This document shows, in pieces, positions 7,687 to 45,196 of a stretch of 64,000 nt of DNA (position 1 is the first letter of the stretch; every line of letters begins with the position of its first letter). Below the pieces are notes generated by a model. It was not told where the DNA came from and did not search any database. It saw nothing but the letters and a program-made list of their open reading frames with translations. The stretch comes from Thermodesulforhabdaceae bacterium (GTDB taxonomy: Bacteria > Desulfobacterota > Syntrophobacteria > Syntrophobacterales > Thermodesulforhabdaceae): contig JBBFKT010000002.1 in the NCBI GenBank assembly GCA_037482015.1, positions 62,001-126,000 of the forward strand, given 5' to 3'. The position numbers and the translations under genes are program-made.

Positions 7687-8480
7687 ACCTTGAAGTTGAT
7701 TCGCTCTGTTTTCGCCACAAAAATCAACATAAAGATGTGCTTAAGTCTATCAGCTTCAGCGCAACTCAGGGAACTGTAACAGCAATACTTGGACCAAACG
7801 GATCCGGAAAGTCCACTCTATTTAAGTGCATTGTAGGATTGTGGAAGCCTTACAGGGGAAAAATTCTCGTTGGCGATAAAGATTCAAGCAAGCTTTCAGT
7901 TCGCGATAGAGCTCATCTTTTTGCGGTGGTTCCTCAGGATCATGAACCTCCTTTCCCTTACCGAGTGTTAGACGTAGTCCTTATGGGTAGAGCTTCTTAT
8001 GTGGGAATGTTTTCTTCCCCAAAAAGAAAAGACTACGAAGCCGCCGAAGAAGCCATATCACTGGTTGGTATAGAACATATCAAACATGAACCTTACACCA
8101 AGATAAGCGGTGGAGAACGGCAGCTTACTCTTATTGCTAGATCGCTTGCTCAGTCAGCTCCAATAATGGTGCTGGATGAACCTACATCCCACCTGGATTT
8201 CCGAAACCAGCTTAGAGTCCTTTCCACGGTGAAGTCTATTTCAAAGGAAAGAAACGTCACCGTCCTTGTTACTCTCCACGATCCCAATCTAGCTTTGCTT
8301 TTTGCCGATAACGCCGTTATCCTGCGTGAAGGATCTGTGGTGGTTACTGGGCATCCCCATCGTATTATCACAGAAGACCTTGTCATACAGGTCTATGGCG
8401 TGGAAACCAAGGTAATTTCATGGAACGGCACAAAACTGGTTTGCCCGATAATGAGTGCACTCCACAATGGGAGGTCATAA
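7683..8480 (+). CDS. FecE/BtuD-type ABC transporter ATP-binding protein
   Basis: Cytoplasmic ATPase of the import system encoded with the preceding permease; 265 residues. The ATG at 7683 (ATGA overlap with the permease stop, GGGAGG upstream) is preferred over an upstream start that would run far into the permease gene. Walker A GPNGSGKST, signature KISGGERQL, Walker B IMVLDEPTSHLD and the H-loop LVTLHDPN are intact, so the protein should be active. Confidence 0.95.
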   Translation: MNLEVDSLCFRHKNQHKDVLKSISFSATQGTVTAILGPNGSGKSTLFKCIVGLWKPYRGKILVGDKDSSKLSVRDRAHLFAVVPQDHEPPFPYRVLDVVLMGRASYVGMFSSPKRKDYEAAEEAISLVGIEHIKHEPYTKISGGERQLTLIARSLAQSAPIMVLDEPTSHLDFRNQLRVLSTVKSISKERNVTVLVTLHDPNLALLFADNAVILREGSVVVTGHPHRIITEDLVIQVYGVETKVISWNGTKLVCPIMSALHNGRS

Positions 8481-8482
8481 TC

Positions 8483-10906
8483 ATGAAGAAAAAAATTTTA
8501 GCCATTGTTTGGCAGTCTTACTACAATATGCTGCTCAAGGCATCAAAGAATCTCAGTAATATCCTGGACATAGAAGTTCATTCAGCAAGAGTTCTCGATA
8601 ATAATCCCGAAAGACTTGATCGTGTCCTTGATACGATCTTTGACGCCGATCTGGTTTTTTTATACCGCTCGGTTGAATCTTTCTGGGATCGAGTGGAAAA
8701 GCTTTTCCGAGAAAGGCAAACAAAGCCCAAAATAGTCTGTTTGAGCCATGATCCGGCTTACTGGACTTTATCGACCGTTAGACCGGAAATTGTAAGTCGA
8801 GCCTATTCATATCTCGTTATAAACGGTGAAGAAAACATGACTAATATGCTCAGGTTTCTTGCATCTGAAGAACTCGGGCTGCACCTGGATTATGATCCGC
8901 CAAAAGAAATCCCGTGGGAAGGGCTTTACCATCCTAAAGCCAGCAGAATCTTTACCGGTATAGACGACTTTCTCGGTTGGTATGACTCATACTGGGGACA
9001 GAATGCATCAAAAGGCACAGTAGGAATACTTTTTTCAAGGCATTACTGGATAAACAACAACCTGGACGTTGAAAACCTTCTTATTGAAAGCCTCGAAAGA
9101 AAAGGTTTCAGGGTAATCCCCGCTTTTGCCTATTCGGTTAAGGATGAGTCTTTAGGAACTAAGGGAAGTGGGGAGGTTGTGCTTGAGTGGTTTGTAGATA
9201 AAACAACTGCTAAACCCCGTATCGATGCAATGGTCAAGCTAATATCTTTTTTCCTGGGTTCCAGCAGGGATAGGGGTGATCTGAGCAATACTGGTGTAGC
9301 TTCTGATGGAATTGAGATTCTAAAGAAGCTCGATGTGCCCTGTTTTTCTCCCGTAAGCTCCTATTACAAAACTGTTGAAGAATGGGAACGAGAAGAACTC
9401 AACATGGATATAGGCTGGGCTATAGCTCTTCCTGAATTTGAGGGTGTGATCGAGCCCATCATTATTGCAGCGCAGAGAGAAGGGGAGGAAGATGTTAGAG
9501 AACGTGTGCCTATACCCGATCGAGTGGAAAAGTTCGTTCAGAGAATAGAACGATGGATAGCTCTCAGGAAGGTGCCACCATCAGACCGAAAGGTAGCTTT
9601 TGTGCTTCATAACAACCCCTGTGCTTCAGTTGAAGCTACGGTCGGTGCAGGAGCCCACCTTGATACGCTGGAGAGCGTTGTGGACATCATGAAAAGGATG
9701 CGAGAAGCGGGATATTGTGTAAATCCTCCCGAAAGCGGCAAAGAACTTATAGACGAAATCATGTCTAAGAAAGCCATATCGGAATTCCGGTGGACGACCG
9801 TTGAAGAGATTGTATCCAGAGGGGGAGCAATAAAACTGCTTGAAAAGGAGAAATATGAGGAATGGTTTTACGAACTTCCTCAAAAAACTCGAGACAGGAT
9901 GATTGAAGCCTGGGGGAATCCACCTGGCGAATTCAAAGAAGGTATTCCGCCAGCAATGGTCTATGACGGGAAAATCGTTATCACAGGTGTTCAGTATGGA
10001 AATGCTCTCGTGCTTGTTCAACCCAAAAGGGGCTGTGCGGGGGCTCGCTGTGACGGGCAGGTCTGCAAGATCCTGCATGATCCCGACGTTCCACCACCTC
10101 ACCAGTATGTGGCTACCTATAAGTGGCTTTCTCGAGAATTTGGGGTTCACGTCATAGTTCATGTGGGAACTCACGGCAATCTGGAATTTCTCCCTGGAAA
10201 AGGCGTTGGGTTATCAAGCGCATGTCTCCCTGACATAGGTATCGACACAATTCCTCACCTTTACATCTACAATGCCGATAACCCACCGGAAGGAACTATT
10301 GCAAAACGTAGATCCTACGCTACCCTGGTAGATCATATGCAAACTGTTATGACGGGAAGCGGACTATACGAAGAACTGGCTGAACTGGATAGGCTCCTTA
10401 CTGAATACGAGGAAACAAAGATAAAAGACCGAGGTCGAGCCCACGCTCTGGAACATCTTATCCTTAACGAAGTAAAGAAAACCAACCTTGACAAGGAAAT
10501 AAAAATAAAGTGGCAGGGCAAGCGAAAAGCTCTGCCAGAATTTTCTCATGAGGAACTTCATTCCATACCTTTTGAAGATCTTGCGCGAGAAATTCACGGG
10601 AAGCTCTCCCTTATTCGCAACACCCAGATTCAGGATGGAATGCACATTTTCGGAAGGATACCCGAAGGAGAGAAAAGAGTGGATTTCATCTACTCCATAC
10701 TTCGCTATGACGCTGGGGAAGAGGTTTCTCTCCGGAAGGAAATAGCCAGGCTTCTTGGATATGAACTTTCCGACCTTTTGAGCAATACTTCAAAATTAGA
10801 TGAAAGAACCGGGAGATCCTATGGTGCCATACTGGAAGAGATCGATGCTGTCTCCAAAAAAGTAATAAAGGAAGTGCTTCAAAGCGCAGGTTGCGCAATA
10901 AACTGA
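8483..10906 (+). CDS. CobN/BchH-like chelatase large subunit, N-terminal part (split gene)
   Basis: First part of a CobN-type cobaltochelatase/Mg-chelatase H family protein, 807 residues. The ATG at 8483 has GGGAGGT 7 nt upstream. The family core is clear: GVQYGNALVLVQPKRGC, IVHVGTHGNLEFLPGKGVGL, and HLYIYNADNPPEG. CobN is normally a single chain of roughly 1,100-1,300 residues; here it ends with a normal stop and the rest follows as a separate gene 14 nt later. CobN binds the tetrapyrrole and inserts the metal with ATPase partners (CobS/CobT or ChlI/ChlD). Co2+ is the likeliest metal by family; Ni2+ or Mg2+ cannot be excluded. Confidence 0.88.
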   Translation: MKKKILAIVWQSYYNMLLKASKNLSNILDIEVHSARVLDNNPERLDRVLDTIFDADLVFLYRSVESFWDRVEKLFRERQTKPKIVCLSHDPAYWTLSTVRPEIVSRAYSYLVINGEENMTNMLRFLASEELGLHLDYDPPKEIPWEGLYHPKASRIFTGIDDFLGWYDSYWGQNASKGTVGILFSRHYWINNNLDVENLLIESLERKGFRVIPAFAYSVKDESLGTKGSGEVVLEWFVDKTTAKPRIDAMVKLISFFLGSSRDRGDLSNTGVASDGIEILKKLDVPCFSPVSSYYKTVEEWEREELNMDIGWAIALPEFEGVIEPIIIAAQREGEEDVRERVPIPDRVEKFVQRIERWIALRKVPPSDRKVAFVLHNNPCASVEATVGAGAHLDTLESVVDIMKRMREAGYCVNPPESGKELIDEIMSKKAISEFRWTTVEEIVSRGGAIKLLEKEKYEEWFYELPQKTRDRMIEAWGNPPGEFKEGIPPAMVYDGKIVITGVQYGNALVLVQPKRGCAGARCDGQVCKILHDPDVPPPHQYVATYKWLSREFGVHVIVHVGTHGNLEFLPGKGVGLSSACLPDIGIDTIPHLYIYNADNPPEGTIAKRRSYATLVDHMQTVMTGSGLYEELAELDRLLTEYEETKIKDRGRAHALEHLILNEVKKTNLDKEIKIKWQGKRKALPEFSHEELHSIPFEDLAREIHGKLSLIRNTQIQDGMHIFGRIPEGEKRVDFIYSILRYDAGEEVSLRKEIARLLGYELSDLLSNTSKLDERTGRSYGAILEEIDAVSKKVIKEVLQSAGCAIN

Positions 10907-36028: not shown

Positions 36029-36454
36029 CTATTTTTTTGTTTCAGTCTTAGGAACCTGAGACTGTTCTGATGCTGTAGCAGGAGCTTTGTCTTTTTCAGA
36101 AACTTTTTCAGGAGCAGGCGATGAAGTCCCTTCCTTACTCTGAGGTGCTACAGGAACCGGCTTTGCTTCTGGTAAAACCGGTGCGGGTGCGGTCTGCTGA
36201 GGTTTATCCATTACCGACCGCACACTGGGACGTTCTGCATATCTAGTCAGCACAATGCTTGTTAACATAAATAAAATAGCCACAACTGCTGTGACCTTAC
36301 CCATAACGGTTGGAGCACCAGAAGCTCCAAAAAGCGTTCTCGATGCACCGCCAAAAGCTGCTCCTATTTCTGCTCCTTTGCTCGTTTGCAACAATACCAC
36401 AACTATCAAGAAAAGACACAACAGCACATGGAAAACAATGAGTAGCGTTTCCAT
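36029..36454 (-). CDS. secG: Preprotein translocase subunit SecG
   Basis: Accessory subunit of the SecYEG channel; 141 residues. Two transmembrane segments (IVFHVLLCLFLIVVVLLQ and VTAVVAILFMLTSIVLT) surround the family motif GAEIGAAFGGASRTLFG. The last 60 or so residues are Pro/Ala/Lys-rich and not conserved. It follows tpiA by 25 nt, a frequent arrangement (tpiA-secG-tRNA-Leu). Confidence 0.95.
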   Translation of the reverse strand: METLLIVFHVLLCLFLIVVVLLQTSKGAEIGAAFGGASRTLFGASGAPTVMGKVTAVVAILFMLTSIVLTRYAERPSVRSVMDKPQQTAPAPVLPEAKPVPVAPQSKEGTSSPAPEKVSEKDKAPATASEQSQVPKTETKK

Positions 36455-36479: not shown

Positions 36480-37241
36480 TTAAGCTTTATAAGATACAAT
36501 CCGGCAGAACGAATCCACTTCAAGGCTTGCGCCTCCTACAAGAAGCCCATCAACATCCCGTTCCGCCATAAGTTCATCCACATTGTCAGGTTTAACCGAT
36601 CCTCCATACAATACTCGCAAGGAACTTGCAAGAGCGTTGTCATAAAGTTCTGCTAAAACGCTTCTAATGAAAACGTGCACTTCCTGAGCCTGATATGGTT
36701 TGGCTGTGTGTCCTGTTCCTATAGCCCACACAGGTTCGTAAGCGATAACAATTCTACTTGCTTCTTCTTTGCCAACACCGTTAAGCCCTTTTAGAAGCTG
36801 ATCTTTTACAACATCAAAAGTCTTACCTGCTTCGCGCTCCTCAAGTTTTTCTCCCACACAAAGAACCGGATTAAGGCTTTTTTTCAATAGGGCTAACACT
36901 TTCTTGTTAATAACCTCATCAGTTTCACCAAAAATATGGCGTCGTTCGGAATGACCCACAATAACATAGGAACAACCAACGTCCAAAAGCATCGCTGGAG
37001 AAATTTCGCCAGTAAAGGCGCCTTTGTCTTCCCAATGGCAATTTTGAGCGCCAAGAAATATGTCTTCTCGATGAAGAAATGATCGGACAGCATAAAGAGC
37101 TGTAAAAGGTGGAGCAATCATAACTTCTCGATCTTCTCGAAAAGGAAGCTTCTTCTGAAATTCTCTGACAAAACTAACTGCTTCATCGATAGTTTTGTGC
37201 ATCTTCCAGTTTGCAGCAATAAGACATTTTCGAGCTTTCAT
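36480..37241 (-). CDS. tpiA: Triose-phosphate isomerase
   Basis: Interconverts dihydroxyacetone phosphate and glyceraldehyde-3-phosphate; 253 residues. NWKMHK at the N-terminus (Asn and Lys of the active site), VGHSERRHIFGE (catalytic His), AYEPVWAIGTGHTA (catalytic Glu and flexible loop) and VLYGGSVKPDN (phosphate binding) are all intact. It follows pgk by 14 nt. Confidence 0.98.
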   Translation of the reverse strand: MKARKCLIAANWKMHKTIDEAVSFVREFQKKLPFREDREVMIAPPFTALYAVRSFLHREDIFLGAQNCHWEDKGAFTGEISPAMLLDVGCSYVIVGHSERRHIFGETDEVINKKVLALLKKSLNPVLCVGEKLEEREAGKTFDVVKDQLLKGLNGVGKEEASRIVIAYEPVWAIGTGHTAKPYQAQEVHVFIRSVLAELYDNALASSLRVLYGGSVKPDNVDELMAERDVDGLLVGGASLEVDSFCRIVSYKA

Positions 37242-37255
37242 CGAGAACTCCTTGT

Positions 37256-38455
37256 TTAGACTAAATCCTTACCGCAATCTTTTAGTGCCACCACCCCTGG
37301 AAGTTCCCTACCCTCAAGCATCTCAAGGAAAGCTCCTCCACCCGTTGAAACATAGCTCATTTTTTCATAAGTTCCAGCTTGATGGAGAGCTGAAACCGTA
37401 TCGCCTCCTCCTGCTACAGTGAGAGCAGCAAGTCCTGCGACGAACCTAGCAAGCTCCATTGTTCCTTTTGAAAATTGAGGTTTTTCAAACATACCAACCG
37501 GTCCATTCCACACAATGGTTTTGCATCGTGAAAGAGCGTCACGCCACTTAGCAAGAGTTTTTTCTCCAACATCGAATATCATAACATCATCCGGGATTTC
37601 CCCAATGGCTAACTGACGACAGGGTTCTGATTCCGATTCTGGTGATAGAGCGACAACAACATCTTCAGGGAGAAGCACTTCTATTCCACGGGCTTTTGCC
37701 GTTTCGAGAAACTCCTGAGCCGTTTTTAGATATTCGTCTTCGACAAGCGATTTTCCTACACCTTTTCCTAGCGCCTTAAGAAAAGTGTTTGCCATAGCTC
37801 CACCTATAACCATAAGGTCACACCGTGGCAGGAGATGTTCCAGAACCCCAATTTTGGTGGAAACTTTAGCTCCACCGATAATAAATCCCATAGGACGCTC
37901 TGGAGCTTCCAAAGCTCGATGGTAATAATCCAGTTCTTGCTGAAGCTGATACCCGGCAACACATTCAGGCACGAAACGCACTACAGCATGAACTGACGCA
38001 TGAGCGCGGTGTGACACAGCAAAGGCGTCGTTAACATATACATCAATATTCTCAACCAGAGCTTTGGCAAACTCAGGATCGTTTTTCTCTTCTTCCTGAT
38101 GGAACCTGAGATTCTCCAACATAATCAGTTCGCCGTCTTTTAGATTTTGAACCATCTGTTGAACAGTTTCGCCAATGCAATCAGGTGCGATCGGAACAGG
38201 TTTGTCAATAAGGTCAGATAGAGCTTTTGCTACGGGTTTTAGAGAAAATTCAGGCGCTGGTTTGCCCTTGGGTCTTCCAAGGTGAGAAGCTACCACCAAT
38301 CTGCCACCGTCATTAAGGATTTTCTGGATAGTAGGAAGAGTGGCTCTAATTCTTGTGTCGTCAGTGACTCTACCATCTTTATCTAGCGGCACATTGAAAT
38401 CCGCCCGCAGAAATACTCTTTTACCCGAGAACTTTACATCATCAATTCTTTTCAT
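37256..38455 (-). CDS. pgk: Phosphoglycerate kinase
   Basis: Reversible transfer of phosphate between 1,3-bisphosphoglycerate and ADP; 399 residues, normal length. RVFLRADFNVPLDKDGRV, ASHLGRPKGKP, GGAKVSTKIGVLEHLL and the nucleotide-site GGGDTVSALHQAG are present. It is in a minus-strand run with gap, gap-like and tpiA. Confidence 0.98.
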   Translation of the reverse strand: MKRIDDVKFSGKRVFLRADFNVPLDKDGRVTDDTRIRATLPTIQKILNDGGRLVVASHLGRPKGKPAPEFSLKPVAKALSDLIDKPVPIAPDCIGETVQQMVQNLKDGELIMLENLRFHQEEEKNDPEFAKALVENIDVYVNDAFAVSHRAHASVHAVVRFVPECVAGYQLQQELDYYHRALEAPERPMGFIIGGAKVSTKIGVLEHLLPRCDLMVIGGAMANTFLKALGKGVGKSLVEDEYLKTAQEFLETAKARGIEVLLPEDVVVALSPESESEPCRQLAIGEIPDDVMIFDVGEKTLAKWRDALSRCKTIVWNGPVGMFEKPQFSKGTMELARFVAGLAALTVAGGGDTVSALHQAGTYEKMSYVSTGGGAFLEMLEGRELPGVVALKDCGKDLV

Positions 38456-38494: not shown

Positions 38495-39502
38495 CTAAAG
38501 CTGTTTTCCCATGTGTAATGCGAGATCGATCATGCGGTTTGAATAGCCGAACTCGTTATCATACCAGCTCATGACTTTCACAAGCTGTCCATCAATGACC
38601 CTCGTAAGAGGCGCATCAACAATGGAGGAGTAAGTAGAATGGTTAAAATCGCACGAAACCAGTTCATCTTTCTCAACATAAAGGATACCTTTTAGATAGT
38701 CATTTGCGGCTTCCTCAAGAGCAGCATTAACTTCCTCTACTGTAACGCTTTTTGAGACTCTACAAACAAAATCCACGATTGAAACATTAGGAGTTGGAAC
38801 TCTAATGGCTAATCCGTCGAGTTTTCCTTTGAGTTCCGGGATAACTTCGGTGACGGCTACGGCGGCTCCAGTCGTTGTTGGAACCATAGAAAGAGCTGCT
38901 GCTCTCGCTCGTCTTTTATCCTTATGCAGAGCGTCCAAAAGGCGTTGATCCATAGTGTAAGAATGAACCGTGGTCATAAGACCATGCTCAATAAGGAACT
39001 TATCATGAAGCACCTTGACAATAGGAGCAAGGCAGTTTGTTGTGCAGGACGCATTAGAAACAACATGATGGTTTCTGGGATCGTATTGTTCGTGGTTTAC
39101 TCCAACTACAAAGGTAGCGTCTGCTTTTTTGGCTGGAGCACCAATAATAACCTTTTTTGCTCCCGCTTCGATGTGTCTCTGAGCTTGACTTCTTTCTGTA
39201 AATCGCCCGCTTGCTTCCAACACTATGTCAACATTGAGTTCTCGCCAAGGGGCTTCAGCAGGGTCGGCAGTTTTACAACAACGGTATTTTTTGCCGTTTA
39301 CAATGAGAGATTCGGCATCGAAACCGACTTCAGCGTTGAAACGTCCATGCACGGAATCGTATTTCAAAAGATGAGCAAGATCGGCCGTACTTCCAAGATC
39401 ATTTATAGCAACAATTTCCAGAGGTTCCCCACGATCAATGTTTGCTCTAAATATCATCCGTCCTATACGCCCAAAGCCGTTAATGACTACTTTGACGCTC
39501 AT
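38495..39502 (-). CDS. gap: Glyceraldehyde-3-phosphate dehydrogenase, type I
   Basis: Oxidises glyceraldehyde-3-phosphate to 1,3-bisphosphoglycerate with NAD(P); 335 residues. Rossmann start INGFGRIGRMIFRA, catalytic SNASCTTNCLAP, and NEFGYSNRMIDL at the end. The residue after the second strand, in AINDLGSTADLAHLLKYDS, is Asp, as in NAD-preferring enzymes. A second, distant GAPDH gene is directly upstream. Confidence 0.97.
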   Translation of the reverse strand: MSVKVVINGFGRIGRMIFRANIDRGEPLEIVAINDLGSTADLAHLLKYDSVHGRFNAEVGFDAESLIVNGKKYRCCKTADPAEAPWRELNVDIVLEASGRFTERSQAQRHIEAGAKKVIIGAPAKKADATFVVGVNHEQYDPRNHHVVSNASCTTNCLAPIVKVLHDKFLIEHGLMTTVHSYTMDQRLLDALHKDKRRARAAALSMVPTTTGAAVAVTEVIPELKGKLDGLAIRVPTPNVSIVDFVCRVSKSVTVEEVNAALEEAANDYLKGILYVEKDELVSCDFNHSTYSSIVDAPLTRVIDGQLVKVMSWYDNEFGYSNRMIDLALHMGKQL

Positions 39503-39579: not shown

Positions 39580-40896
39580 TTACTGTCTCATCATTTTTGC
39601 GACCATAACTGTGCGATCTCCCAGCATGTTGGTGTAGCTACCAAGTTCGTTATCATACCAACCGTAGATAACAGCTTGAGTAACGGGGATCTGTAAAATA
39701 CGTTTGCCTTTTTCCATAATAATGCTGGCTGTTTGTGTCTGAATTTCTTCTTCTGTGGGCGGAACTTCCATTCCCGATGTGGCGCCCGTTCTTAAAATTT
39801 CATCAATGTCGAACCTAACAGCGGCTGTTCTTGTGTGAGTTTCTGTTCCTTCAATTATGGCTGCAGCTCGGGGAGTGCCTATAATGTCCGAGGAAACATT
39901 CTGTTCTTCTGAGTATATCAGATAGCCTTCAGGATATCGCTTCATTGCTTCTTTGTAAATGTTATTGATGGTTTCGCGATTTACGGGATTGGTGAAACTT
40001 TCATCCTGAATCAAGACTACAAGAATGATAAGTGAGCCAGTTGTTAAGGGGACGCGAACTGATTCGGCAATAAAACCAATGTTTTTCATCTCCGGTATAA
40101 CGAAAGCTAAAGCCTTTGCGGCGCCGGTGGTAGTTAGTATAATGTTGTTAGAAACAGATCGAGTCTTTCTAAGATCGGTTGCGCCAGCTTTAGGAAGTCT
40201 ATCGAGGACTGCTTGAGAACCGGTTGCAGCGTGAACAGTTGCCATGGACGCCGAAAGGATGCGTTGGGCACCAAAATGGTCAATAAGTGGCTTCATCATG
40301 TAGGCAAGACATGTGGTTGTGCAGGATGCAGCGGAAATGATGACATGCTTTTTATGATCATAGGCGTAGTCATTTATACCAACAACCGTGGTTATGGTAT
40401 CTTCAGGGAAGGATTTACTCTTATCTTTTATTTTGAATGGGGCGGAGAGTATAACCTTTTTGGCTCCTGCAACAAGATGCCCTCTTAAAGAACCCTTTGG
40501 ATCATCCGGAGGAGTCGTAGGATCAAGGAAAACACCAGTAGCATCTACAACAATTTCAACATTGTGATCTCGCCATCCAATATCGGAAGGGTTTCTATGT
40601 TTTCGGAGCACCTTAACCTTAACCCCGTTTATTTTCATCGTGCCTTCTTTGTCGTTTATCTCCTCAATTATTCTTTTGGCTCTACATCCATAGATAAAAT
40701 TATGAAGCGAACCATAGGTTGAGTCCTTTTCTATGTATTCAGCAAGGTCTTCTAGACCTTTTCCCACATCTCGCCCAACGTTTATAACAAGTTCCGAAAA
40801 ATACTGCCTTTCTACGTGATGCCACAAAGAAAGCTTACCTATGCGACCAAGCCCATTGATGCCAAGGCTCTGGGGCACAAACTTCTCATCACTCAT
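39580..40896 (-). CDS. Long-form glyceraldehyde-3-phosphate dehydrogenase homologue
   Basis: 438 residues, about 100 more than classical GAPDH. The N-terminal nucleotide site GINGLGRIGKLSLWHHVERQ, the catalytic Cys in SAASCTTTCLAYMM, MATVHAATGSQAV and the C-terminal YGWYDNELGSYTNMLGDR are present, so it should be a working dehydrogenase. Extra segments occur after the Rossmann strand and near the C-terminus (TPRAAAIIEGTETHTR). A divergent long GAPDH group exists in several bacterial phyla; whether this one serves gluconeogenesis or another phosphate ester is unknown. Confidence 0.9.
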   Translation of the reverse strand: MSDEKFVPQSLGINGLGRIGKLSLWHHVERQYFSELVINVGRDVGKGLEDLAEYIEKDSTYGSLHNFIYGCRAKRIIEEINDKEGTMKINGVKVKVLRKHRNPSDIGWRDHNVEIVVDATGVFLDPTTPPDDPKGSLRGHLVAGAKKVILSAPFKIKDKSKSFPEDTITTVVGINDYAYDHKKHVIISAASCTTTCLAYMMKPLIDHFGAQRILSASMATVHAATGSQAVLDRLPKAGATDLRKTRSVSNNIILTTTGAAKALAFVIPEMKNIGFIAESVRVPLTTGSLIILVVLIQDESFTNPVNRETINNIYKEAMKRYPEGYLIYSEEQNVSSDIIGTPRAAAIIEGTETHTRTAAVRFDIDEILRTGATSGMEVPPTEEEIQTQTASIIMEKGKRILQIPVTQAVIYGWYDNELGSYTNMLGDRTVMVAKMMRQ

Positions 40897-40924: not shown

Positions 40925-43900
40925 CTAACTGCTTGCTATAACCTCATCTTCCCACTTGGTTTCATGGTTGCCTCGATAGATGGCTCCACTTCTTCCATCG
41001 AGGCTTATAATATCCCCTGTGCGGAATGTATGTCCATTTATGCTACATCGATGCTCTTGCTCCCAAACGGTCATTTTGGTGCAACCAACTACGCAGGTTT
41101 TTCCTAATCTGTGAGCCACTATGGCGGCATGGGACGTGGCTCCACCTCTGCCCGTGAGAATTCCATCAGCCGAAGAAATTTCCTTGATATCATCAGGAAC
41201 GGTATCTGGACGGATAAAGATCACCGGATCATCTGGAAATTCCCGCCTTAGCCTGTCGATGGATTCTAAATCAAAAGCAATTCGTCCTGAGATAGCCCCC
41301 CCACTTACTCCGATACCGCTTGCAAGGTAGCTTTCTGCAAGAGCCGGAGTCGGAACAAAGACTCGATACCGACGGGATACTCTAGGGGTCATATTCCGGC
41401 TTTGAAGCACATACAGATTATCACCTACATTTCCCTGGAAGGTGAATTCTATCTCCTGGGGTCCCCAATGTTGTTTATAAACGAGTTCTTCGGCGATTTC
41501 GACCAGTTTTTTGTAAACTTCAGGGAAGAGCTTTTCTAGAGAAGTTTCTCGAGGTTCAGCCTCTCTGAGACGCTGTTTTTCGGATATGGGAAGAGTTTTC
41601 ACCAAACCGCCTACGACGTCTTCTCCCTGGTTGCCGAGAGTAAAATCGCCGTTCGGGTCTATGTCTTCTTCTGCAGCCCAGGTATTGTGAGTGAACATCA
41701 CTCCAGCTCCAGATGATTCGTCCAAGTTTCCAAATACCATCGCTTGCACGGTAACAGCTGTTCCCCAATTGTCGGATATGCCCATGATTTCTCGATAAGT
41801 TCTGGCTTTGGGAGCATTCCAGGATTCAATAACTTTGTTAATAGAAGTAAGGAGTTGTTCCCATGGGTCGTCAGAAATGGGCACTCCAAAACTTTCCAAA
41901 GCTCTACGGTAATCCCGAGCCACTTCTCTCATTTCTTCGGGTTTGAACTGGCGTTTGACTTTCACGCCCCGCATCTCTTTGTGAGCTCTCATAATGCTGT
42001 CAAACTCATTTCTGTCGATACCAAAAGACATACCCCATGATTGAAGAAATCTTCGGTAATTATCCCAGGCGAACCAGACTTCTCCAGTTTGCCTGATGAG
42101 TCCTTCTACGATTTCTTCGTTGATTCCCACATTAAGAAATGTTGTCATCATGCCTGGCATTGACATGGTAGCACCGCTTCTTACAGAAAGAAGAAGTGTA
42201 TTAGTGGGACATCCAAAACAACGTCCTGTTTCTTCCTCAAGCATTCCAAGAAATTTGTGCAGTCTAGCCTGGAAGTCTCTTTTGGAGTCAGGAAAATGTT
42301 CAATAACTCTCCTGCATCGGAAGTATTCGGTTGTTATGATGAAACCCGGAGGCACTTTGATACCTGACTCGTGAAGAGTGGCCAAGTTGTAGCCCTTATT
42401 GCCAAGATGGATGGGATCATAGAGATGAGGATCGGGATTCTGTATTGATGTAATGGTTTTACCAGGTTCGTAGCTAAGGAGCAGATCCAGGGCATCAGGG
42501 CTGAAAACCGATTTCTGGTGAGAAAGAGTGGATAGAATGCGGGTAATGAAATTATCAAAGTGTTGAAGTCCAAAAGTTCTGGCTACAAAATCTCTAAGCA
42601 CCGTCTCCGAAAGTTGTTGTAACCTTTCCCTTGGAGTCATTTCCGACGTGCGGCGGTATTTAGGCAAGAGTTCCTCATCCTTAAGCCGGGGAATAATTCG
42701 ATTTAGGTTCTGCTCATGAGTAATATGATAATACAAGGTAATGATCTGCTTTATTGCCTCCGAAAATCCTCTGAATATGTCCATATACTGAGAGTGAGAA
42801 AATCTTCTTACTTCTAGAGCCTTTTCAAACATTTCGTAGTAACGTTCAAGTTGAGTGGACCTTATCCCTTCTATTTCCAGAGCCTTTATGAAAAGGGGAA
42901 ACACACGAAGTATTTCCGAAAAGGTCGCTCTAGTAATAAAACCAAGATCAAAAGACTGAAGAATCTCTTCAAAGAGAACGTTTGCAAGATTTTCAAGCCT
43001 GAAGGTTAATCCTAAAGCGTCGAACTTTTTCTCGTTGTAAGATCCATACATGGATGGGATATCAACGGCGATATGGCGTTTAATGTAAATGTTTTCCTGA
43101 GCTCTTAGCTCTGAAGGTTCTGTGATAACATTCTTTAGCTTTGACAGATAATCCAGGATAGCTTTAAGTTTTGAAAAGCTATCGCCGTTCTCCAATGCGG
43201 CAACCAATTCAGACGGGTTTGGAAGACCGAGTTGAGCACCTCGATGGAGGTATTCAACTATGTCTTTTGGGTCGAGGTTATACTTTTCATAAAGGAGTTG
43301 ATAAAATTTTACCATCAGAACGACTCTTCGCTTCTCTTTAGACGGCACATCCGGGATACGATCAAAGACAGTGTTAAGAGTTTCCTCGCTGAGTTCAAGA
43401 AGATCTTCAATTTTGTTGACGATAGTTTCGTCAAACAGAGCTTTAACGAGTTTATGAGGATACTGAACAAAAGAACTTGATGGATCAATAGTGCTATAGA
43501 CTTCTCCAGGCAAGAAAGTTTTTATGTGGGATGGATCAAGAGAATACCAAAACTTAAAAACGGCTTCAATAAAAGGCACAGTCAGATTATTACTTTCTAC
43601 ATGGCTTTGTTTCCTAAGGAAATGAACCAGGGGATCTCCTCTACCGTGTATTTCATCAACTTCTGTGGACACGCTTCTTAAAACCCCTTCAGCACCTATT
43701 TCATTGAAGTAAACAGGGAAGAGCCGAGCCATTTGTTTAACCAAATTGTAAACAGTAGCTATGGGAGCGTGTAGTATAGCACTTACATCTCGTTGGAAAA
43801 GATCTGTATCTCGAATGCAAGTTCCGGTGAGAGAAAGATATACGATGAGAGCCGATAGAAGTTGTCTGGTTTTTTTGGGATCGCATTTGATAATATCCAA

Positions 43901-45196
43901 CCATACACGAATGTTAAGAATATGGGCATTGTTTACCTGAACCTGCCAGTAGGTGCTGACTCCCTTAATCTGGGGTGTCTGAAAGCCTAAGGCAATAGCT
44001 CGATCAATGAAATGATCGATAAGCCTTTTGTTGCCGCCTGAAACAATTTCAACACCGAAAGTGCGCACGCAACGTAGCACCGCTTCAGGATGGGTATTAA
44101 AGCTTGCAGAGAGAATTTCCATAACAGTGTCAATTGTTTGAGCAAGTGTTTCTTCCGGTTGACTCTTTAGCCACAAAGCAAGATCCCGATTTACTAGATT
44201 AAGCATTTCTTCCTGAATAGCTTCAAGTCCCTTAACCTGGGTAATTTTAAGCCGTATTATCATGCTAAGGCGAGTGACGTCGCGAAGATGATACCTATGA
44301 AGTTCTTCTGGGAATTTTTCATAAGCTCTCACAATATCTCTGTAATCTGGAAGTTCGATTAACTTTGTTATAGCCTGGACATGGTTGGAAATGGATTGAG
44401 TTTTGATCATAAGATTCAGGTGAGACCTGAGTGTTGCATGACTTATGGCAACACAACTTTCAAGAGATGCTAGATCTATATCAGATTCAAGGTAGGGTTT
44501 AAGCCATTCGCAAGGATCTTCTTTGTTTAGCCAGTAGTTGTAGGTTTGATCAAAAACTCGAAAAAGCAGGTTGCGAAGAATTTGTAAAAATTCTCCTTGA
44601 TGTTCCCATAGGATCACAAGTTTCTTAGCCAGAGGTTTTAGAGAGTAAAAGCTGTTGAGCAAAATAAAAAAGTGATCGTCGTCGAGTTTAATCAGTTTAT
44701 CCAGGAAAAGGGCGATGATTGCCCCGTTTAGCTCATCGATTTCCCTGGCATCTTCGAGTGATTGGATAGCTCTTTCATTATGGTTTCCGATTAGAGGTTT
44801 TAGGACATTTGAATCTAAAATTCTGTTCCAAAACACTATCAATTCATCAATAGCTACAGATTTAACAGCTGGCTGAGACGACTGGATGAAAGCATCGAAG
44901 ATAATTTTACTTAAAAGAAAAACAATCCGGCCTCGTAAAGGATGTTTTTCCCAAAAACGCTGGTTTGATGTGATGTATCTCTTGGTTTCATCAAGGATAA
45001 CCTGCCAGTTTTTGTAGCGATGGTGGTATTCCGTAAGAAGTGTTTCTGCTTGCTGTTCAAGCCCTTTTGCTCCGTTTACTGCTTCTTTTAGAATCATAAA
45101 CACCGAATCAATCTGAATAGGAGCCTGTCTGGTAAGTTCCATGTGTATTTTCAAAGCATCAGACGATGGTGTTAAGCTGGTCAATCCAATACTCAT
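40925..45196 (-). CDS. PPDK/PEP-synthase-like phosphotransferase lacking the PEP barrel
   Basis: 1423 residues. The N-terminal 900 or so residues are mostly helical with no motif I recognise. From about 905 there is a pyruvate-phosphate-dikinase ATP-grasp domain (LGNKGYNLATLHESGIKVPP, LLLSVRSGATMSMPGMM, PQEIEFTF, VLQSRNMTP). The phosphohistidine swivel domain follows with GILTGRGGATSHAAIVAH (His about 1356). The protein ends 67 residues later, so the C-terminal PEP/pyruvate TIM barrel of PPDK is absent. Its acceptor is therefore unclear. AAAGGAG precedes the ATG. It heads the glycolytic operon. Confidence 0.87.
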   Translation of the reverse strand: MSIGLTSLTPSSDALKIHMELTRQAPIQIDSVFMILKEAVNGAKGLEQQAETLLTEYHHRYKNWQVILDETKRYITSNQRFWEKHPLRGRIVFLLSKIIFDAFIQSSQPAVKSVAIDELIVFWNRILDSNVLKPLIGNHNERAIQSLEDAREIDELNGAIIALFLDKLIKLDDDHFFILLNSFYSLKPLAKKLVILWEHQGEFLQILRNLLFRVFDQTYNYWLNKEDPCEWLKPYLESDIDLASLESCVAISHATLRSHLNLMIKTQSISNHVQAITKLIELPDYRDIVRAYEKFPEELHRYHLRDVTRLSMIIRLKITQVKGLEAIQEEMLNLVNRDLALWLKSQPEETLAQTIDTVMEILSASFNTHPEAVLRCVRTFGVEIVSGGNKRLIDHFIDRAIALGFQTPQIKGVSTYWQVQVNNAHILNIRVWLDIIKCDPKKTRQLLSALIVYLSLTGTCIRDTDLFQRDVSAILHAPIATVYNLVKQMARLFPVYFNEIGAEGVLRSVSTEVDEIHGRGDPLVHFLRKQSHVESNNLTVPFIEAVFKFWYSLDPSHIKTFLPGEVYSTIDPSSSFVQYPHKLVKALFDETIVNKIEDLLELSEETLNTVFDRIPDVPSKEKRRVVLMVKFYQLLYEKYNLDPKDIVEYLHRGAQLGLPNPSELVAALENGDSFSKLKAILDYLSKLKNVITEPSELRAQENIYIKRHIAVDIPSMYGSYNEKKFDALGLTFRLENLANVLFEEILQSFDLGFITRATFSEILRVFPLFIKALEIEGIRSTQLERYYEMFEKALEVRRFSHSQYMDIFRGFSEAIKQIITLYYHITHEQNLNRIIPRLKDEELLPKYRRTSEMTPRERLQQLSETVLRDFVARTFGLQHFDNFITRILSTLSHQKSVFSPDALDLLLSYEPGKTITSIQNPDPHLYDPIHLGNKGYNLATLHESGIKVPPGFIITTEYFRCRRVIEHFPDSKRDFQARLHKFLGMLEEETGRCFGCPTNTLLLSVRSGATMSMPGMMTTFLNVGINEEIVEGLIRQTGEVWFAWDNYRRFLQSWGMSFGIDRNEFDSIMRAHKEMRGVKVKRQFKPEEMREVARDYRRALESFGVPISDDPWEQLLTSINKVIESWNAPKARTYREIMGISDNWGTAVTVQAMVFGNLDESSGAGVMFTHNTWAAEEDIDPNGDFTLGNQGEDVVGGLVKTLPISEKQRLREAEPRETSLEKLFPEVYKKLVEIAEELVYKQHWGPQEIEFTFQGNVGDNLYVLQSRNMTPRVSRRYRVFVPTPALAESYLASGIGVSGGAISGRIAFDLESIDRLRREFPDDPVIFIRPDTVPDDIKEISSADGILTGRGGATSHAAIVAHRLGKTCVVGCTKMTVWEQEHRCSINGHTFRTGDIISLDGRSGAIYRGNHETKWEDEVIASS

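Follow-up and report, generated by a model that had tools for sequence, protein, structure and literature searches.

A giant PPDK-like dikinase and its co-occurring divergent glyceraldehyde-3-phosphate dehydrogenase in Desulfobacterota and Nitrospirota

Glucan water dikinase combines carbohydrate-binding modules with a histidine domain that precedes a C-terminal ATP-grasp domain. Rifampin phosphotransferase and the HpeHI/PpsAB enzymes join an ATP-grasp domain and a swivelling phosphohistidine domain to an acceptor domain of a kind other than that for phosphoenolpyruvate (PEP) (PMC4844700, PMC12167813). VadK (Rv1127c) of M. tuberculosis retains the ATP-grasp and swivel domains of pyruvate, phosphate dikinase (PPDK) without the PEP domain; it autophosphorylates, and is a regulatory kinase tied to central carbon metabolism through its interaction with enzymes of the methylcitrate cycle (PMC13400623). 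The protein considered here has the same general logic. It is a giant PPDK-like dikinase (hereafter, the giant) encoded within 64,000 nucleotides (the window) of contig JBBFKT010000002.1 of a Thermodesulforhabdaceae bacterium (GCA_037482015.1, positions 62,001 to 126,000).

Computational analysis shows the giant's architecture, its conserved catalytic residues, a helical domain that has no known relatives, an exact co-occurrence with one divergent glyceraldehyde-3-phosphate dehydrogenase (GAPDH) of 438 residues (GAPDH438), and frequent gene adjacency. Judged from these sequences, the giant is probably active as a phosphohistidine dikinase and either relies on that specific GAPDH for its function or acts in its service. 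The reading preferred here for what it does, to which we assign a probability of roughly 0.4, is that it activates 3-phosphoglycerate to 1,3-bisphosphoglycerate for reduction by GAPDH438 in the gluconeogenic direction. The form of the giant that is paired with GAPDH438 is designated type A, and a divergent Nitrospirota form type B.

The dikinase part and the domain in front of it

A Pfam search with the whole protein finds two domains only, PPDK_N (E 9e-32) at residues 931-1204 and, at 1322-1404, the PEP-utilizers mobile domain (E 7e-20); in phmmer, residues 931-1269 and 1279-1414 align to Clostridium symbiosum PPDK (PDB 1kbl) at E 1e-82, with ~33% identity over the ATP-grasp and swivel domains. 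The chain ends 9 residues past the 1kbl match and therefore has no C-terminal PEP/pyruvate barrel, which bears out the earlier note's description of nucleotide and phosphohistidine domains that match PPDK, after which the protein stops. The PPDK active-site residues are kept and invariant among 37 aligned sequences (K934, R1006, E1250, Q1265, R1267 and His1356, the last also common to type B sequences), and the SMPGM loop in the same alignment is mostly so (S1012, P1014, G1015, M1017). A G-loop of the PPDK kind goes with inorganic phosphate (Pi) as co-substrate and pyrophosphate (PPi) as product; judging by its own, the giant would likewise depend on Pi. The predicted model of residues 227-1423 superposes on 1kbl at 3.0 Å over 538 columns, and on PPDK structures of other deposited conformational states at 9 Å or more; from knowledge of PPDK structures, we take the predicted state to be that in which the swivel sits on the nucleotide domain.

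The match of both domains to PPDK is what would make the giant an ordinary PEP synthase or PPDK, the name that some members seem to get in genome annotation. That is barely credible for a protein with an all-helical N-terminal part in place of a PEP barrel that scores far under the NCBIfam cut-offs for both families (390.4 bits vs 843.45 on TIGR01828 for PPDK; 91 vs 598 bits on the best PEP synthase model, the PEP domain not being present), and whose genome encodes a canonical PPDK on another contig. The same genome encodes a third PPDK-like protein (G000:C6:26222; L003:1363-3963, plus strand) with an ATP-grasp domain, an altered swivel (TGHE) and another ~400 residues that do not seem to form a PEP barrel; its gene adjoins one that reads as formate-tetrahydrofolate ligase.

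The domain in front of the dikinase part, residues 1-925, is predicted by AlphaFold2 (46 sequences; mean pLDDT 86.5, pTM 0.79) to consist essentially of helices, with a beta hairpin at 699-722 as the sole exception. These residues match no Pfam model at meaningful score and no PDB sequence by profile; Foldseek with the model returns generic superhelical proteins alone (TM ≤0.18 by query length), and comparison with viral structure models gives no match. Fold matches to karyopherin-like and similar superhelices (TM <0.2, rmsd >20 Å) are taken as generic. The earlier note had left these ~900 residues unexplained; a permuted PEP barrel there is ruled out by the predicted all-helical model and the lack of a fold or profile match, and a separate, probable acceptor domain placed ahead of the dikinase part is supported.

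Two conserved blocks within the helical domain are rich in Arg, Lys and His. Their invariant cationic or polar residues (R507, R528, K529, H532, K706, R707, H708, Y720, E722 and R733) are as expected for a putative site for a phosphorylated anion. Many of them are common to type B proteins, from genomes without GAPDH438, and for that reason look catalytic rather than GAPDH-binding; this sharing argues, only moderately, for a site that binds a small acceptor.

Pairing with GAPDH438

Co-occurrence was assessed in 197 evenly sampled Desulfobacterota genomes (at least 90% complete), with the giant counted by its N-terminal profile, GAPDH438 by profile at a strict threshold, and the genome lists compared by eye. 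The giant is encoded in 57 of these genomes, and GAPDH438 in the identical 57 and no others; they span 41 genera and, by count, 27 families. Among 148 Nitrospirota genomes, type A is found in 19 and GAPDH438 in the identical 19. Related genomes are not independent, so that no probability is attached to these counts. In genus g34, one genome has both genes and another has neither. In ~15 of the 57 genomes the two genes are well separated or on contigs of their own, and because they are hundreds of kilobases apart in two genomes that are single contigs (G069, G244), linkage alone fails to explain the pairing. Correlated evolution of distances is high for both GAPDHs and for phosphoglycerate kinase (PGK), and inseparable from shared ancestry.

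Scanning the genome collection gave at least 564 loci that encode the giant; the hosts of the best 80, which were retained, belong mostly to lineages of Desulfobacterota, while some bear the title Nitrospirae and a single one is labelled Nitrospinota. No plasmid carriage was found. With neighbours identified from sequence motifs, a GAPDH gene lies near the giant, mostly immediately adjacent, in 56 of 81 loci, and this link persists between groups despite reshuffled gene order, inversions included; in several genomes the giant adjoins a canonical type I GAPDH (GAPDH335 in the window), and GAPDH438 is elsewhere, beside PGK. The link to neighbouring genes that the earlier note had drawn thus holds in two phyla, and the exact co-occurrence with one specific GAPDH makes it stronger; what survives of the metabolic context that it suggested is the tie to triose metabolism, while glycolysis in general gives way to GAPDH438 as the specific partner.

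Type B was found in 8 sampled Nitrospirota genomes (L168-L175; for example, L169:5742-10097, plus strand). Where complete, it is ~1430-1510 residues long, with a different N-terminal segment and with the conserved core and dikinase part in common; the type B loci that were read have no visible glycolytic neighbours, and the host genomes lack GAPDH438. In one single-contig genome (G142; L181:5933-7888 and 7716-10100, plus strand) the giant is split into two overlapping frames and the only GAPDH is the divergent one; the split may represent a two-subunit form, a pseudogene or a sequencing error.

In the alignment with type I GAPDH, GAPDH438 retains both catalytic residues (Cys and His) and the Thr/Gly and Arg of the substrate site, along with a TTTG motif and the arginine of RVP/RIP. 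It differs in being ~100 residues longer, with conserved insertions, and scores 339.8 bits on TIGR01534, below the curated cut-off of 367.2. It also has an invariant Arg at the approximate site of Asp32 of the NAD-dependent enzymes, a known coenzyme determinant of GAPDH (PMC3728087), which makes NADP(H) use by GAPDH438 a reasonable guess. Three near-complete genomes, all from one genus, have no GAPDH besides GAPDH438, and for that reason it can probably serve as one. One single-contig 2.0 Mb genome carries GAPDH438 and PGK twice, with identical scores (G169:C1:505497-507924 and 1777503-1779930).

The pairing is also what would be seen if the giant were a regulatory phosphotransferase that phosphorylates, or binds and controls, GAPDH438 (or both GAPDHs) while sensing AMP, ATP and Pi, with its ~900-residue helical domain as a protein-docking scaffold. 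This main rival to 3-phosphoglycerate activation has a precedent in VadK, a PPDK-derived kinase that has dispensed with the PEP domain (PMC13400623), and it fits both the protein-binding superhelices that are the helical domain's best fold matches and the rpoN-ptsN-rapZ-EIIA regulatory genes that adjoin the giant in up to 23 of the 81 loci. Yet much of the charged conserved core recurs in type B, where there is no GAPDH438 to control; karyopherin-like matches at such TM values are no evidence of homology; and an additional acceptor domain of comparable size is absent from VadK. Regulation of GAPDH is accordingly regarded as somewhat unlikely. In several lineages (loci L104, L092, L076), a run of lpt, rpoN, hpf, ptsN, rapZ and EIIA(Man) lies immediately upstream of the giant, and could place the giant/GAPDH pair under nitrogen/PTS-type regulation.

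A proposed step at the triose level

In the reading preferred here, 3-phosphoglycerate activation, the giant would be a dikinase of PPDK descent that is still catalytically competent. The ATP-grasp domain in its C-terminal half would phosphorylate the swivel His1356 from ATP (and, by G-loop type, Pi), releasing AMP and PPi, and the swivel would pass the phosphoryl group to an acceptor in the N-terminal helical domain rather than to pyruvate. The giant and GAPDH438 would constitute one unit at the 3-phosphoglycerate/1,3-bisphosphoglycerate/glyceraldehyde-3-phosphate node. With 3-phosphoglycerate as the most likely acceptor, the reaction would be 3-phosphoglycerate + ATP + Pi -> 1,3-bisphosphoglycerate + AMP + PPi, followed by reduction of the product to glyceraldehyde-3-phosphate by GAPDH438, probably with NADPH; gluconeogenesis would in this way circumvent the PGK step by a strongly driven route. 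The Pi dependence, the use of NADPH, the acceptor and the direction are all inferred. The scheme would explain why the giant and GAPDH438 are paired, why the conserved blocks look suited to binding an anion, why there are autotrophs among the hosts, and why glycogen synthase genes lie near the giant in 13 of the 81 loci.

Glycogen synthase within a few genes of the giant could also speak for a different acceptor in sugar metabolism (a glucan, glycerate or another sugar phosphate), phosphorylated in the manner of glucan water dikinase and with the domain logic common to other small-molecule dikinases. We consider this quite unlikely: Pfam finds no carbohydrate-binding domain in the giant, its order of helical domain, ATP-grasp and swivel is unlike that of glucan water dikinase, and its pairing is with a GAPDH.

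What is known of the hosts bears on direction. Thermosulfurimonas dismutans uses CO2 as sole carbon source and is unable to ferment sugars, and a reverse direction has been inferred for its glycolysis; in its genome paper, PGK is TDIS_2021 and the GAPDHs are TDIS_2022, 2024 and 2143 (PMC4911364). At the corresponding locus (L104) GAPDH335, giant, GAPDH438 and PGK stand in a row, and the giant, by its position between two GAPDHs beside PGK, should be TDIS_2023. Dissulfurimicrobium hydrothermale, also thought to run gluconeogenesis, is listed with PGK (08510), GAPDH (08515), 'phosphoenolpyruvate synthase' (08520) and GAPDH (08525) (PMC8780430); as the tags follow one another without a break, 08520 is likely to be the giant, misnamed. 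Both papers treat the locus merely within gene lists.

Several points weigh against 3-phosphoglycerate activation. PGK was found in all 30 of the well-assembled giant-bearing genomes tested, so that 1,3-bisphosphoglycerate has another source; dependence on the giant for this step is seen in no genome, and the scheme does not explain why PGK is retained. In the eight type B genomes the core domain exists in the absence of GAPDH438, the NADP reading of GAPDH438 rests on a single aligned position beside a length change, and no sequence test supports the acceptor or the direction. As to the retained PGK, though, parallel routes of differing driving force are common in central metabolism, as with PPDK or PEP synthase beside pyruvate kinase. 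No case of the giant replacing a lost PGK was found among the 30 owners; two further genomes, reached through loci L094 and L143, had no PGK match, and were left uncounted because their completeness is not given. A divergent PGK (~230-280 bits vs ~500) occurs in several owners of the giant (G098, G100, G109, G111, G114, G148 and G237), three of which (G109, G114 and G237) seem to carry only divergent PGKs. PFK-family genes, present in 34 of 35 giant owners, and pyruvate kinase, present in 26 of 35, do not separate the hypotheses.

The reaction could also run the other way. The PPDK reaction is reversible, and an ATP-forming giant would recycle the AMP and PPi of sulfate activation to ATP with a phosphorylated triose intermediate as donor. 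The APS reductase gene aprA is in fact enriched among giant-bearing genomes (40 of 57, vs 38 of 140 other Desulfobacterota), but the 17 owners without an aprA match rule out strict dependence on sulfate activation. T. dismutans, moreover, cannot respire sulfate and Dissulfurimicrobium grows by disproportionation only, and for both the presumed direction of the pathway is the gluconeogenic one (PMC4911364, PMC8780430), all of which makes energy recycling very unlikely.

The gene and its comparison with described dikinases

The giant is encoded on the minus strand, which the earlier note had left unstated; the plus strand across the gene is dense with stops. An assembly or frameshift artefact is excluded because dozens of relatives have the same full-length architecture. 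The giant is the first gene of a same-strand run (Table 1), in the order giant-GAPDH-GAPDH-pgk-tpiA-secG, in which the intergenic gaps downstream of it are 14-77 bases; as the earlier note had it, the gene heads a glycolytic run. On the opposite flank, a divergent plus-strand set from 45477 encodes a HisC-like aminotransferase and cytidylate kinase-like and S1-like proteins (the latter two names, not the first, were read from translations alone).

Table 1. Coordinates, within the window, of the giant, its domains and motifs, and the genes of its run
Feature	Coordinates	Strand	Basis
Giant PPDK-like dikinase, 1423 aa	40925..45196	-	single uninterrupted open reading frame; domain matches; relatives
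N-terminal all-helical domain, residues 1-925, putative acceptor domain	42422..45196	-	AlphaFold2
Conserved core block 1, residues 401-535 (GFQTP, RDTDLFQ, GAEGVLRSVSTEVDE, HFLRKQSHVES)	43592..43996	-	invariant residues; subset in type B
Conserved core block 2, beta hairpin and next helix, residues 699-735, KRHIAVDIPSMYGSYNEKKFDALGLTFRLE	42992..43102	-	conservation, model, type B
PPDK-type ATP-grasp domain, residues 931-1269	41390..42406	-	Pfam, family models, phmmer, structure model
PPDK-type G-loop SVRSGATMSMPGMM, residues 1004-1017	42146..42187	-	alignment with PPDK
Swivelling phosphohistidine domain, residues 1290-1414	40955..41329	-	Pfam, phmmer, structure model
Codon of catalytic His1356 in GGATSHAA	41129..41131	-	aligned with PPDK catalytic His
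Divergent GAPDH, 438 aa, co-occurring partner (GAPDH438)	39580..40896	-	
Canonical type I GAPDH, 335 aa (GAPDH335)	38495..39502	-	
Phosphoglycerate kinase (PGK)	37256..38455	-	
Triosephosphate isomerase	36480..37241	-	named by translation; conserved neighbour
SecG	36029..36454	-	

PPDK (TIGR01828; PDB 1kbl) has the ATP-grasp domain, the SMPGMM G-loop and the TSHAA catalytic swivel in common with the giant, which differs from it in having no PEP/pyruvate barrel and a new helical domain of ~920 residues in front. VadK has no large extra domain, and its partners are enzymes of the methylcitrate cycle. The acceptor domain of rifampin phosphotransferase and HpeHI/PpsAB lies between ATP-grasp and swivel, or on a separate chain, whereas the giant's candidate is N-terminal and its ATP-grasp is followed directly by the swivel; in the phenolic kinases, the nucleotide motif is closer to that of PEP synthase than to the PPDK type seen in the giant. 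Rifampin phosphotransferase matches the giant's structure model weakly (E 5e-5), and no similarity of the helical domain to it or to HpeHI/PpsAB was found. The likeness to glucan water dikinase and rifampin phosphotransferase that the earlier note had proposed extends to shared logic; closer resemblance is not supported, the G-loop being of the PPDK type and the domain order unlike that of either enzyme, and the helical domain gave no match to either.

In the literature searched, most subscription journals being outside its scope, no description of the family was found: the catalytic engine is known, but no account turned up of the proposed acceptor domain, of this order of domains or of the pairing with a GAPDH. 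It is possible, if doubtful, that autotrophic or syntrophic anaerobes of at least two phyla have a previously unrecognised PGK bypass that costs ATP -> AMP + PPi and is served by a dedicated NADPH-GAPDH. The pairing itself points to a phosphorylation step, so far unrecognised, midway through sugar metabolism. The central sugar pathways are commonly held to be fully charted; joint presence and absence of the two genes in two phyla suggests a reaction or control point at the triose level that is missing from the textbook pathway, and that would concern many cable bacteria, sulfur disproportionators and organisms that reduce sulfate. Set beside the described phosphohistidine dikinases, the giant adds to them a new putative acceptor domain and a new domain order.

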